From assembly GCA_029260345.1 (NCBI GenBank), contig JAJDDK010000005.1:186001-250000 (forward strand): 64,000 bases of DNA, in the 5' to 3' direction. Below the pieces are notes generated by a model, which saw only the letters and a list, made by a program, of their open reading frames with translations, ran no database searches and was not told the origin of the DNA. Of this stretch, positions 46,425 to 50,822 are shown one piece after another. This DNA comes from Phycisphaerales bacterium (GTDB taxonomy: Bacteria; Planctomycetota; Phycisphaerae; Phycisphaerales; UBA1924). The position numbers were made by a program, and so were the translations under genes. Position 1 is the first letter of the stretch. Each line of letters starts with the position of its first letter.

Positions 46425-48917
46425 ATGACTTCGAACACGCCTAAATTCACCAATCGCCTCGCAGGCGAGACCAGCCCGTATCTCCTCCAGCACGCGCACA
46501 ACCCCGTGGACTGGTTCCCGTGGGGGGAAGACGCCTTCGCCGAGGCCCGCCGGCGCGGCGTCCCGATCTTCCTCTCGATCGGCTACTCCACGTGCTACTG
46601 GTGCCACGTCATGGAGCGGGAGTCGTTCGAGCATGAGCCGACGGCCGCGATCCTGAATGAGCGATTCGTGCCGGTGAAGCTCGACCGCGAGGAGCGGCCG
46701 GACATCGACGACCTCTATATGAGCGCCGTCCAGATGCTCACCGGGCATGGCGGCTGGCCGATGAGCCTGTTCCTGACGCCGCCGGGCTCGGCGGGCGAGG
46801 ACGACCCAGGGCTCAAGCCGTTCTGGGGAGGCACCTATTTCCCGCGCGAGTCGCGAGGCGGGCATCCATCCTTCCGTCAGATCATGGAGGGGATGAGCGA
46901 CGCTTGGACCAACCGGCGCACTGAAGTCGTGCAGCAAGGGGAACTCATCGCCGAAGCGCTGCGTGATCGCCTCGGCGCGGAATCAAGACCCGCGCACATC
47001 AACGAGATGCAGGTCGGTCACGCCGTCGGGCAGCTCATGCAGATGTACGACTCATCAATGGGCGGCTTTGGCGGCGCGCCGAAGTTCCCACAACCGGTGT
47101 TCCTCGAGTTTCTTCTCGACGCCGCGCCGACGATTCGCGAGGACGAACCCAAGCATGCGGTGCTCGGCGCCGCGGCGCACACGCTGGAGCGCATGGCGCT
47201 GGGCGGCTTGTTCGATCAGGTCGGCGGCGGCTTTCACCGGTACAGCGTGGATGCGCAGTGGCTGGTGCCGCACTTTGAAAAGATGTTGTACGACAACGCG
47301 CAGATGGTGGGGCTGTATGCGCGGGCGTCGGTGATGTTTGAGGACGCGTTCTTTGAGCAAATCGCGCGGCGGACGTGTGAGTATGTGTTGCGGGAAATGA
47401 GAAACCAGAGCCCCGAGCGCGAGCGAGGGGTCACGGATGCGCAATCCAACGAAGAGAATGAGGAACTAACGGCTTCCGTAAACGAAAACGGACGAGACGC
47501 CCGTCCCACCGGCGAAGGTGGTAACGGCGCGTTTTTCAGTGCACAGGACGCGGAGGCCAATCACCGGGAAGGCCAAAACTATGTCTGGCGACTTGAAGAA
47601 TTACGTGCGGCATTAGGCGAAGAAGATGCGGCGTTCGCAAGCCGCGTGTATGGGCTGGCGCAAGGAACGAACTTCCGCGATCCACACAATCCCGAAGATG
47701 AACCAGCAAATGTCTTGCGTTTGGCGGAACGACCTGAAGTGCTGGCGTCTCGATTTGAATTGGACGCGGCGGGGTTTCAGGCTCGTCTCGACGACGTGAA
47801 CGCGAAGCTTTATGAAGCACGAGCGAAGCGCGATCAGCCGCTGACGGATGACAAAGTGATTGTCGCGTGGAATGGCTTGATGATCGCGGGTCTGGCCGAT
47901 GCGGGGCGGTGGCTGAAAGAGCCGCGCTACGTGGACGCCGCGACTGAGGCGGCGCGGTTCATTCTGCATGAGATGCGCGATGATTCAGGCGGGCTGATGC
48001 GCGTGTGGCGCGACGGCGCCGCAAAGACGGAAGCGTTCCTTGAGGACTACGCCATGTTCATTCGCGGCTTGATCGCGTTGCACCGCGCCGGTGCCGGTGA
48101 TGAGTTCCTGCCCGCGGCGATCGAATTGGCGGAAATGGCGCAGGAGCGTTTCGGCGATGTGGAGTGGGGCGGCTGCTTCGACACGCGCGATGGCCAGACG
48201 GACCTGATCGTGCGTTCAAAGACGATGCACGACGGCGCCATGCCCAGCGGCGGTTCGGTGATGATTCACAATTTGCTGGACCTCACGGAACTGAAAGGCG
48301 ATGCGAAGCATCTGGATCGTGCGATGAAGGCGCTTGCGTCCATGAGCCGCGCGATTGGGGAGTCGCCGCTGGGGCCGGTGGAAGCGACGCGGGGGCTTCT
48401 GCGCGTGCTCATGCGCGATCCATTACTGCCGGGCAAGCACGGCATGGGCGAGGATGCGGAATCGGTTGAGCCTGATCAGCCGGATGATGGAGCATCGGAC
48501 GACGCCGACTCGGATTCACCCGTTCAGGTCTTTGCCAATGTCGAAGAAGTGCAGGTCAAACACGGCGCGGCGGCGGAAATCGAACTCGCACTGCGCATCA
48601 GTGAAGGCTGGCACGTGAACGCGCACGAACCCGGCGTCGAAGGTGTGGCCGGATTGGTTGTAGGTGTCGAAGGCGGGTCAGGCGTGCGCGCTGAAGTGGT
48701 GTACCCGAAGGGCGACCCGCTTGAGGCAGAGTGGGCGCCGCCGCATGCGCGGCCGCTGGTGCATCACGATGAGGCGCTCATGACCGTGCAGCTGCATCGC
48801 ACGGATGACGAATGGAGCGGCGCGCCGACGCTGGTGGTGCGCTATCAGGCGTGTACGGATCGGAGTTGCGAGGCGCCGCAGGTGGTGGTTTTGGGGATTG
48901 GGATTGGTGAGGCTTGA
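46425..48917 (+). CDS. Thioredoxin-domain protein (DUF255/YyaL, SSP411 type) with DsbD-alpha-like C-terminus
   Basis: An 830-residue protein, longer than the usual 680-700. The N-terminal DUF255 thioredoxin-like domain contains [20 protein letters not shown], then WFPWGEDAF, and the redox-like [17 protein letters not shown], and [17 protein letters not shown] (alpha/alpha)6 glycosidase-like region follows ([40 protein letters not shown]). Between LREMRN and [10 protein letters not shown] lies an unusual 40-residue insertion (328-367; see the repeat at 47406-47525). After an acidic linker (about 675-698) the last 130 residues look like the DsbD N-terminal domain, with [15 protein letters not shown] carrying the Cys pair. 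Start is [10 protein letters not shown] partial copy of the 3' end lies downstream. Confidence 0.88.
47406..47525 (+). repeat. Repeat-like in-frame insertion inside the DUF255 gene
   Basis: A 120-base in-frame segment encodes [11 protein letters not shown], then an acidic stretch, then [15 protein letters not shown]. It interrupts a region that in relatives runs straight from the LREM helix to the FFSAQDAE motif. The peptides SPERERG and GRDARPT look like translated dispersed repeats of planctomycete genomes; that identification is from memory and needs a genome search. Confidence 0.5.
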
Positions 48918-48920
48918 GAT

Positions 48921-49077
48921 TCCCTTCTCCCTTTGGGAGAAGGTGGCATCGCGCAGCGATGACGGATGAGGGCCAGGAGTTTGTCGCTGAACTTCAGTTG
49001 AAATTGGAACAAGGAAGTGAATTCGATCCTCACCTAGCGGTGCTGCGCTCCGCCGACCTCTCCTAGGGGGAGAGGTG
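48921..49077. repeat. REP-pair element 1 (two hairpin repeats in inverted orientation)
   Basis: The head (48921-48974) has the hairpin CTTCTCCC/GGGAGAAG and then runs to GACGGATGAGGGCC. The tail (49028-49077) starts CCTCACC and ends with the hairpin CCTCTCC/GGAGAGG. Head and tail are roughly reverse complements of each other, enclosing about 50 unique bases, as in REPIN/BIME pairs. It lies between convergent gene ends. Confidence 0.75.
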
Positions 49078-49082
49078 GGGAA

Positions 49083-49238
49083 TCCCTTCTCCCACTGGGA
49101 GAAAGTGGCAACGCGAAGTGTTGACGGATGAGGGCCGAGTGTTCAATGCGGAATTTGCCATAAGTGTTGAAAATGGAAAAGACTCGGCCCTCACCCGGCT
49201 TCGCTTCGCTGCGCCGACCTCTCCCAGAGGGAGAGGTG
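49083..49238. repeat. REP-pair element 2, same family as element 1
   Basis: The head (49083-49136, CTTCTCCC/GGGAGAAA hairpin, ending GACGGATGAGGGCC) and tail (49186-49238, GGCCCTCACCCGGCTTCGCT to CTCTCCC/GGGAGAG) are in inverted orientation with about 50 bases between. It is in direct tandem with element 1 at nearly the same length (156-157 bases). Confidence 0.75.
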
Positions 49239-49243
49239 AAGCG

Positions 49244-49342
49244 GCGACGCCGACACTCGTGGTGCGCGATCAGGTGTGTACGGATCGAAATTGTGAGGCG
49301 CCGCAGGTTTTGGCTTTGGGGATCGCGATCAATTCAAATTGA
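49244..49342 (+). pseudogene. Partial duplicate of the 3' end of the DUF255/DsbD-alpha gene
   Basis: It encodes PTLVVRDQVCTDRNCEAPQV, then LALGIAINSN and a stop. This is a near copy of the end of the gene at 46425-48917 ([20 protein letters not shown], then [10 protein letters not shown]). The nucleotide match runs over about 84 bases with roughly 15% differences. It has no start region of its own and follows directly after REP-pair element 2, so it is read as a remnant. Confidence 0.75.
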
Positions 49343-49351
49343 AGTTGTCTT

Positions 49352-49502
49352 GCCTCCTCCCCCGCCTTGCGGGGGAGGACTGAGGAGGGGGCTACTCCGG
49401 CTATTCATACTTCTTGCCTCGTGCGAGAACAGCGCGATGAGGCAGGGAGAAGGGGATAGCTCAGTAGCCCTCCCCCGGCCCCTCCCGCGGGGCGGGAGGG
49501 GA
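49352..49502. repeat. REP-pair element 3, a different family
   Basis: The head (49352-49396) holds CCTCCCCCGC/GCGGGGGAGG and ends GGGGGCTACT. The tail (49463-49502) begins AGTAGCCCTCCC and holds CCCTCCCGC/GCGGGAGGG-type arms. The two are inverted relative to each other. It abuts the stop of fahA (49509) and may serve as a bidirectional transcript end. Confidence 0.7.
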
Positions 49503-49508
49503 GAATCC

Positions 49509-50822
49509 TCACTCCGCCGCCAAAATCTCCCCGCTGCACTCACCAAACCCAATCTTGCGGAACCCGTCTCGCTCGCACCAGCCTCGCATGATCACGGTGT
49601 CGCCGTCGGCGAGGAACTTGCGCTCTTCGCCGGTGGGGAGTTGGATCGGGTTGGCGCCGCGCCAGGTTCGTTCGAGCAGGCAGCCGCGGGATTCTTCGGC
49701 GGGGCCGGAGACAGTGCCGGAGCCGAGCAGGTCGCCGGGGCGCATGTTGCAGCCGGTGGACGTGTGGTGTGCGAGCATTTGTGCGCACGTCCAGTACATG
49801 TCCTTGAGCGAACCGATGCTGACACGCACGGGCGCCATGTCCTTCTCTTCCATCTGCTTGGATTGGATCAGCACTTCGAGTGTGACGTCAAAGGATTCAC
49901 CCGGCGGGTTGAGATAATCGAGATTCTTCGGGTCTTCCGGACTGCGCGCGGGCGGGCCGGCGGCGAAAGGCGTGAGCGCATCAAGCGTCACAACCCACGG
50001 GCTGATCGTTGAGCAGAAGTTCTTCGCATTGAACGGCCCCAGCGGCTGGTATTCCCACTTCTGAATGTCGCGCGCCGACCAGTCGTTGAGGATGACCATG
50101 CCGAAGAGGTGGTCGCGCCACTTGTCGATGGACACGCGCGTGCCAAGCTCGTTGCCGCTGCCGACGACGTACCCCATCTCGAGTTCATAATCGAGCAGGC
50201 GGCACGGGCCAAAGGTGGGCATGTCGGCGTCATCGGCTTTGGTCTGCCCCATCGGGCGACGTACCGGCACGCCGCTGACGCACAGCGACGAAGCGCGTCC
50301 GTGATACCCGACCGGCAAGTGCTTGTAGTTTGGCAGCAGGGGATCGCCATCGGGGCGGAACATCTTGCCGACGTTGGTTGCGTGATGCGCTGACGCATAG
50401 AAGTCCGTGTAATCCAGTACAGCCATCGGCATCATGTTCTCGATCTCATCGAGCGGGATCATGATTTTCTTGCGCAGCGACGCATTGTCGCGGAGGATTG
50501 GTTTGCTTGCGTCGAGCAATTCGCTGATGCGCTCGCGCACGGCGGTCCAGACAGGACGGCCCTGCATCATGAGAGAATTCAGCCCTGCAATCGCGAAGAC
50601 GTTGTGTTCCTCAATCGGCGTGCTCTTGAAGAGTCCGGACATGTGAGCGCCGGCGAGGTCGAGCACCTGGTCGCCGATCGCAACGCCGACGCGCCACGGC
50701 TCGCCCGGCATGTCGCCGCGACGGAACACGCCGTACGGAAGGTTTTGAATCGGGAAGTCGCACGAAGGATCATTCGCGGCGGACACCCAGGAAGAAAGCT
50801 TGGAATCGTTGGTGTTGCGCAT
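49509..50822 (-). CDS. fahA: Fumarylacetoacetase
   Basis: A 437-residue enzyme that splits fumarylacetoacetate into fumarate and acetoacetate, the last step of tyrosine degradation. An N-terminal SH3-like domain (FPIQNLPYGVFRRGDMPGEP) precedes the FAH domain, with DYTDFYASAHHATNVGKMFR (catalytic His and first metal Asp), LPVGYHGRASSLCVSG, LDYELEMGYVVG (Glu ligands), VILNDWSARDIQKWEYQPLG, PFNAKNF and STGCNMRPGDLLGSGTVSGP. It lies 12 bases after an unknown gene on the same strand. No homogentisate dioxygenase is in the window. Confidence 0.96.
   Translation of the reverse strand: MRNTNDSKLSSWVSAANDPSCDFPIQNLPYGVFRRGDMPGEPWRVGVAIGDQVLDLAGAHMSGLFKSTPIEEHNVFAIAGLNSLMMQGRPVWTAVRERISELLDASKPILRDNASLRKKIMIPLDEIENMMPMAVLDYTDFYASAHHATNVGKMFRPDGDPLLPNYKHLPVGYHGRASSLCVSGVPVRRPMGQTKADDADMPTFGPCRLLDYELEMGYVVGSGNELGTRVSIDKWRDHLFGMVILNDWSARDIQKWEYQPLGPFNAKNFCSTISPWVVTLDALTPFAAGPPARSPEDPKNLDYLNPPGESFDVTLEVLIQSKQMEEKDMAPVRVSIGSLKDMYWTCAQMLAHHTSTGCNMRPGDLLGSGTVSGPAEESRGCLLERTWRGANPIQLPTGEERKFLADGDTVIMRGWCERDGFRKIGFGECSGEILAAE

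Follow-up and report, generated by a model that had tools for sequence, protein, structure and literature searches.

The three repeat elements that lie in a row between two convergent genes of the analysed stretch (64,000 nucleotides, hereafter the window) probably consist of clustered triplex modules that are dispersed in the genome and belong, like BoxC/PIT/TM_ECO, to the class II purine-motif intrastrand type. Four features of the sequence point to this reading: the dispersal of the elements, their architecture, a second stem whose pairing is kept in most of the varying units, and the covariation of foot and stem. The formation of the triplex, its action at replication forks and its driving of spread and local duplication are what we infer from them. 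The elements follow the gene of a thioredoxin-domain protein (DUF255/Thioredox_DsbH; 46425..48917, + strand, start assumed) and precede a convergent fumarylacetoacetase gene (49509..50822, − strand, 3′ end at 49509), both assigned by ORF and domain annotation. An earlier, sequence-only reading of this DNA had placed three repeat elements in a row at this site, and they are present in the window sequence. It described elements 1 and 2 as near-equal tandem units, which is correct, except that the unit is not about 157 bases long, the start-to-start distance being 162/161. Each element does hold two inverted hairpin units, and the roughly 50 bases said to be enclosed by them measure 53 nt in elements 1 and 2; the arms, which had been taken for hairpin repeats, are in these two elements each made of a double hairpin and a G-rich foot.

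In the units of elements 1 and 2 (family I/II), the order on the G-rich strand is stem 1, a short link, a variable stem 2 and the foot. Element 1 (48918..49080, + strand; defined by sequence and pattern search) is an inverted pair of a type I unit on the plus strand and a T-variant type II unit on the minus strand. The left unit comprises stem 1, CCTTCTCCC-TTT-GGGAGAAGG (48923..48943, +; sequence and folding), a variable stem 2, CATCGC-GCA-GCGATG, lying within loop 2 of the putative triplex (48947..48961, +; folding), and the foot GGATGAGGG (48964..48972, +; triplex scan), the predicted reverse-Hoogsteen third strand, with 9/9 triplets to stem 1 and a loop 2 of 20 nt. The right unit has the stem 1 ACCTCTCC-loop-GGAGAGGT (49056..49076, −; sequence and folding) and a decayed foot, GGTGAGGAT, of which the first 7 bases match (49026..49034, −; sequence and triplex scan). 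Element 2 (49080..49240, +; sequence) is the second tandem pair. Its left unit combines a stem 1 with one mismatch, CCTTCTCCC-ACT-GGGAGAAAG (49085..49105, +; sequence and folding), with the foot GGATGAGGG (49126..49134, +; sequence and pattern search), and its right unit combines the stem 1 ACCTCTCCC-TCT-GGGAGAGGT (49217..49237, −; sequence and folding) with the foot GGTGAGGG (49188..49195, −; triplex scan), which gives 8/8 triplets over a loop 2 of 22 nt. Across the family, type I stem 1 is CCTTCTCCC-N3-GGGAGAAGG, type II stem 1 is CCCTCTCCC/GGGAGAGGG or ACCTCTCCC/GGGAGAGGT, and the foot is GGATGAGGG or GGGTGAGGG. When single units were folded against shuffles, the z-scores ranged from −3.8 to −0.7 over the six window units, with a clear excess only in some, which we count against the triplex reading.

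Element 3 (49345..49505, +; genome search and alignment) belongs to another dispersed family (family 3), whose members are about 155 bp long and have a conserved interior between two ends, each a different hairpin with its foot. It had been credited with the same design in another sequence, which it has, and with a unique interior, which is instead conserved across its family. Both of its units were located by triplex scan and folding: the left one is a hairpin, TCCTCCCCCGC-CTT-GCGGGGGAGGA, with a short loop and the foot AGGAGGGGGC (49355..49392, +), and the right one a hairpin, CCCCTCCCGC-CCC-GCGGGAGGGG, with a short loop and the foot GGGGAGGGC (49467..49501, −). Loop 2 is only 3-5 nt long here. 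A search of the own genome with element 3 returned 47 matches, 29 of them covering at least 147 of its 161 bases. Single family-3 ends also adjoin family I/II arrays (contig positions C7:239997, C2:110247, C4:121976 and C5:641962), and it looks as if modules combine.

Elements 1-3 are not a product of chance, since dispersed copies exist. In the own genome (3.40 Mb in 8 contigs), elements 1 and 2 used together as a query found 78 matches, and GACGGATGAGGGCC with at most one mismatch found 47, versus 2 for the reversed control. A family I/II pattern in which stem positions 7-9 and foot positions 1 and 3 could be any base, the rest of the foot being mostly fixed (TGAGGG), gave 111 matches, and none in the reversed control. 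The copy counts thus bear out the earlier expectation of a repeat found, with its inverted pairing, at other places too. The unit statistics rest on 100 listed of these 111 matches. Stem 2 was highly variable, with 30 distinct best stems among the 100 units and simple stems of 2 to 9 pairs; at least five consecutive pairs were present in 62/100, versus 4.6% of shuffled loops, and fewer than five simple pairs in 38/100, which we count against the triplex reading. Some type II units with GGGAGAGGG (e.g., at C1:109946) have the stem 2 CCGAGC-N3-GCGAGG, where closure by tandem sheared G.A pairs, a DNA motif, could presumably occur. Nineteen foot-facing pairs were recognised among the listed units, spaced by 35-64 nt (51-56 nt in 13/19), and all 19 joined different sub-types; element 1 is absent from this set because its right foot has decayed. 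Tandem pairs were joined by 12-15 nt, counted between pattern ends.

In all six window units, the G-rich foot mirrors, and does not complement, the purine strand of the hairpin. With T permitted opposite A, the mirror pairs are GGGAGAAGG/GGATGAGGG, GGGAGAGGG/GGGTGAGGG, GCGGGGGAGG/GGAGGGGGC and GCGGGAGGGG/GGGGAGGGC. Judged from the letters, this stem-foot layout is that of the class II purine-motif intrastrand triplex known from BoxC/PIT/TM_ECO of E. coli, with the antiparallel triplet rules taken from the consulted part of Holder et al. 2015 (PMC4666352). A pyrimidine arm, a purine arm and a 3′ third strand compatible with G*G.C, A*A.T and T*A.T triplets were found at six places. The 64-kb window was scanned for a hairpin stem followed within 30 nt by a mirror strand, one mismatch being allowed. 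This yielded six places at a stem length of 7, four at 8 and two at 9, all inside elements 1-3, versus a mean of 0.05 and a maximum of 1 at stem 7 in 20 dinucleotide shuffles of the window. At stem 9, two units were perfect, the left ones of elements 1 and 3. Two of the six stem-7 matches lie in a register other than that of the true foot, because the scan ends at the first match. The wrong, same-strand orientation gave four matches at stem 7 versus six in mirror orientation, and none at stem 9 versus two; the four fall within these same six units, GGAGAGG being identical to its mirror image.

In the proposed mechanism, the G-rich strand would become single-stranded, for instance in replication, so that the pyrimidine arm could pair with the purine arm and the purine foot fold back antiparallel to the purine arm to give the triplets above. 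The variable hairpin of elements 1 and 2 would lie in the second loop and, once paired, would leave about 0-6 nt to bridge stem and foot, as judged by inspection. Two such modules would face each other across about 54 nt, as different sub-types in the own genome, and these pairs would be repeated in tandem. Selection would act on the triplex fold. The elements themselves would be non-autonomous and selfish, with single-stranded DNA as the route by which these repeats spread and rearrange. A fold that stalls or reroutes replication might favour local duplication, a view in keeping with the arrangement in tandem and with the duplication of a gene end that flanks elements 1 and 2.

The stem and foot could alternatively be read by a protein, a Y1/HUH single-strand DNA transposase or another one, with no triplex involved, which we regard as rather doubtful. 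IS200/IS605 elements have guide and cleavage sequences of matched specificity, and the inverted pairs, tandem arrays and dispersal described here resemble mobile single-strand DNA elements. A GTAG-like tetranucleotide (CTAC/GTAG) adjoins the foot in 25/52 family-3 ends. A search for Y1 (RAYT) transposases, which the sequence-only reading held to be needed somewhere, did recover three Y1_Tnp genes in the genome; none of them, however, is flanked by these repeats. No family I/II unit was found by pattern search in the 1.5-kb flanks of the three genes, and none of the listed family I/II (100 of 111), family 3 and TM_ECO places falls within their loci (L031-L033). The RAYT-like gene (L033, 1216-1797, on contig C6; HUH and YIHANP signature judged by eye) has another repeat, the palindrome CCACTGCTCnnGAGCAGTGG, on both sides. 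This palindrome occurs at 38 genome sites with at most one mismatch, 13 of them exact, and together with the gene it is a separate REP/RAYT system. A second Y1 gene, with a YIENQ motif, lies between inverted copies of CCACGAGTGAAGCGAAGCGCAACTCGTGG (L031, 1308-1336 and 1926-1954). The consulted part of PMC6006769 reports class 3 Y1 proteins, mainly from Planctomycetes, Acidobacteria and Proteobacteria, with high-copy flanking structures, which favours a protein reader. By description only, these structures resemble the present elements in their high copy number in Planctomycetes and Acidobacteria, but they carry a 5′ foot CnGA, whereas here a CCGA-like stretch lies 3′ of the foot. The mirror match itself, with T only opposite A, also argues against recognition by protein: it is the demand of the purine-motif triplet, whereas a protein code need not mirror.

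Beyond the own genome, the family I/II pattern was present in 14/392 genomes of the phylum sample, the own one included, with high counts of 111 (own), 80, 39, 19 and 13. A DNA search of 61 relatives, again including the own genome, gave matches in 8; no other genome of the same genus was present among the relatives and phylum genomes searched. A stricter pattern retrieved at least 119 stretches from a public genome collection. Among the 80 titles listed, 72 were alphaproteobacterial, 2 planctomycete, 1 Anaerolineaceae, 4 clostridial bins and 1 an unclassified bacterium, where bins can be contaminated; Brevundimonas, Caulobacter, Bosea, Bradyrhizobium and others of the matching titles are genera that we take to belong to the alphaproteobacteria. 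The pattern was also carried by at least 120 stretches of viral-labelled contigs and by plasmids in two records, both from Methylosinus trichosporium. The double-hairpin pair was likewise visible across phyla: 119 of the selected units were followed by a long enough sequence (6 further units were cut off), and a partner foot was present in 85 of them, the median distance being 47 nt, and absent from 34. The 85 partners comprised 51 with A/A, 22 with G/G and 12 without a recognised stem, and none was discordant. The partner feet were of the same type in 54/85, so the rule of joining different sub-types, seen in the own genome, fails there.

Evidence for a third strand comes from the positions that vary together. 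Stem base 7 and foot base 3 agreed in 100/100 listed own units (56 G/G, 44 A/A), and stem base 9 and foot base 1 in 82/84 of those in which stem 9 is a purine. The remaining 16/100 have T at stem 9, and by inspection their foot is one base shorter there. When the opposing arm base 3 was included, 79 units from own loci (a set overlapping the 100) had the triplet (arm base 3, stem base 7, foot base 3) as C-G-G in 40 cases and as T-A-A in 38, with 1 exception, and it was C-G-G or T-A-A in 21/21 units from loci of relatives (L054-L078). A looser cross-phylum pattern gave these whole triplets in 68/72 units, with 4 exceptions, and cross-phylum units outside the search pattern showed stem-foot agreement in 69/69 (from 51 of the 119 stretches). 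Agreement was found in 53 of the 56 listed units (of 167 found) from other genomes of the phylum, the misses being in G365, G196 (one G/A) and G044; those in G365 and G196 do not look like elements. On the viral-labelled contigs it held in 158/167, with no A/G or G/A swap among the nine misses. These counts are not independent trials, and the Fisher values of the pair tests are not probabilities, because the copies are related; in family I/II, moreover, only two positions were free to vary in the test, since the foot is largely prescribed (TGAGGG) by the patterns. The covariation is, as far as the letters go, the pattern predicted for a triplet contact, and the variation among copies suggests that evolution preserves the third-strand match.

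Pure inheritance, in which two or three old sub-families spread whole and the stem-foot association reflects history and not structure, would account for the same sub-types recurring in distant genomes; with copies that are not independent, old sub-families could give much of the association. We consider it distinctly unlikely nonetheless, for both sites vary and all four two-site combinations of stem 7/foot 3 and stem 9/foot 1 are present. Three stem 2 sequences were found with both the A/A and the G/G core, none of the 167 viral-contig units pairs A with G, and the unrelated family 3 follows the same rule. In the 55 of its readings that reach 8 or all 9 of the 9 triplets, the foot's own stem fitted better in 54 and tied in 1. 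Over all 106 readings with the two stems, including outward-facing ones and leaving out 12 readings with other stems, it was better in 59, tied in 32 and worse in 15. Two other causes of the coupling were tried and rejected. Pairing of a foot with its partner foot is perfect in only 3/19 pairs, the feet differing in 16/19. If the foot exchanged strands with the 5′ arm by plain Watson-Crick pairing, foot 3 should be G and foot 7 should be A in type I, whereas type I feet have A at foot 3 in 39/40 and G at foot 7 in 38/40.

The sequence-only reading had assigned the elements to REPIN/BIME architecture. Dispersed palindromes in inverted pairs and in tandem mosaics, as in BIMEs, are indeed what we found, whereas the REPIN part, with its RAYT, is not supported. 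A REPIN/BIME proper, mobilised by a RAYT, would share with the elements the inverted pairs, clusters or mosaics and the intergenic site between convergent genes, and a RAYT-like gene is present in the genome. It is nevertheless very unlikely, as the flanks of that gene and the 38 genome sites belong to another palindrome, no RAYT is flanked by the elements, and elements 1 and 2 lack the GTAG tag: neither GTAG nor CTAC stands next to their feet, where the family I/II consensus is CCGA-like; of the family-3 ends, 25/52 do have such a tetranucleotide. That such architecture is little described in planctomycetes, as had been stated, is partly right: the consulted part of PMC3733652 reports GTAG REPs from this group, while the five phyla for which it lists CGTC repeats are others.

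The least probable explanation, which the position of the hairpins between convergent genes might suggest, is that the gene ends carry bidirectional terminators of transcription or RNA hairpins. A scan found 0 terminator-like sites versus 0.9 in shuffles, no Rfam family reached its gathering score in 20 chosen loci and, according to the consulted part of Holder et al. (PMC4666352), purine-motif triplexes do not form in RNA. A match to MIR1858 (33.7 bits versus a gathering score of 137) was taken as a chance match of a long hairpin.

The triplex modules proposed here are closest to TM_ECO, alias BoxC or PIT, as treated in the consulted part of Holder et al. 2015 (PMC4666352, citing Hoyne et al. 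2000). The motif is there described as stable in vitro (CD, NMR) and linked to genome instability. No DMS protection was seen in E. coli cells, which we count against the triplex reading. Strain MG1655 is stated to hold five inverted TM_ECO pairs, always of types A and B. The present elements share the order of pyrimidine arm, purine arm and third strand; one sub-type matches the consensus in its stem (GGGAGAGGG) and its foot (GGGTGAGGG), and in the own genome the inverted pairs also combine two types. They differ in loop 2, which is 3 nt in TM_ECO and 20-22 nt with a variable hairpin in elements 1 and 2, in having a further sub-type with A (GGGAGAAGG/GGATGAGGG), and in their tandem arrays of pairs. 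The TM_ECO consensus CCCTCNCCC N3-6 GGGNGAGGG N3 GGGNGAGGG had no match in the window stretch of contig C5, and canonical motifs were found at 16 other places in the own genome and at none in the control. The same part of PMC4666352 gives TM_ECO counts for proteobacteria and describes the ITxF finder with loops of 1-6 nt and an earlier finder with 0-10 nt. Elements 1 and 2 would escape both because of these loop limits, and they fail the ITxF rule unless stem 2 is counted as closed.

Other known repeats are related in part. CGTC REPs are, in the consulted part of Di Nocera et al. 2013 (PMC3733652), found mostly in alphaproteobacteria with no dedicated transposase known, and are defined by a CGTC tag, a stem of 8-9 bp, a loop of 4-5 and a CCA tail. 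As far as that part goes, a type I unit, read on its other strand, has the order CGTC-hairpin-GCCA, and stems often start with AT in both. Here, however, the CGTC hairpin is enclosed in the loop of a larger module, which also has a second hairpin and a mirror foot; neither the CGTC tag nor the CCA tail is present in type II units, and stem and loop sizes differ. The whalefall-1 model (Rfam RF01762) has a hairpin UCuCuCC/GGaGaGA, a second hairpin and then gGuGAGG, and the foot largely mirrors the stem in its consensus. It differs in being a candidate noncoding RNA, which its source paper (PMC2864571), in the part consulted, rates as certainly RNA, and in that the match here is below the gathering score: a unit aligned to the whole length of the model (1-56) with 21.5 bits versus a gathering score of 37, and the best match in the own genome reached 27.7 bits, with none above the cut-off. 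The link is weak because sub-threshold matches occur in control genomes too (6/14). That whalefall-1 is a DNA element of the triplex-module kind is thus a guess. RIME1 of rhizobia is a similar repeat.

More tentatively, and with somewhat less than even confidence, we propose that a single class of DNA element, made of a hairpin and a fold-back third strand, with a loop that may hold a CGTC-type hairpin, is common to alphaproteobacteria, planctomycetes, Chloroflexi and others. It would be the basis of the BoxC/TM motifs, of some CGTC REPs and perhaps of the whalefall-1 'RNA', and with the triplet covariation nature itself would supply evidence of selection for an intrastrand DNA triplex in cells. 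If true, the triplex reading would link repeat families that are filed apart. According to the consulted part of PMC4666352, TM_ECO folds in vitro while footprinting in cells gave no signal. On whether intrastrand triplexes have a role in living bacteria, base triplets that covary in many copies from several phyla offer evidence of another kind, which names exact positions. Two features appear to be new: the base-triplet covariation and, in elements 1 and 2, the presence of a variable hairpin in the second loop of the triplex. Titles and abstract beginnings of the open-access literature on intrastrand triplexes since 2015 mention neither a hairpin in the loop nor triplet covariation, and among the matches listed for open-access papers sharing the elements' oligomers, no title concerns such repeats.

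Elements 1 and 2 are flanked by a direct duplication of the 3′ end of the DUF255 gene, identified by sequence comparison and passed over in the sequence-only reading. The first copy (48817..48904, +) is the gene's own end and the second (49241..49329, +) lies directly behind element 2; the duplication is imperfect and 88 bp long, with 85% identity over 82 nt. Orthologue comparison indicated that the gene's own copy retains the commonly conserved YQAC stretch and that the downstream copy is the changed one (orthologue pieces were at most 64% identical among the matches listed). Flank duplication was surveyed at 60 loci, reduced to 47 clusters after loci without units (L030, L250 and L257) and repeats had been dropped; the window duplication lies inside its own merged cluster and is invisible to this flank-similarity survey. 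Direct similarity between flanks exceeded the null maximum of 48 (600 cross-locus pairs) in 4/47 clusters (L010, L019, L238 and L256). By eye, the similarity is another dispersed repeat in L010 and another triplex motif in L019. The duplication at L256 (about 75 bp, around a family-3 element), and perhaps that at L238 (35 bp), resembles the one in the window. Flank duplication as a general signature was therefore rejected, one or two further cases alike among 47 clusters being too few. Another dispersed repeat, near ATCCGAACCGCGCCCGTGAGGAAGCGG, was seen by eye beside these elements at loci L010, L232, L237 and L257.
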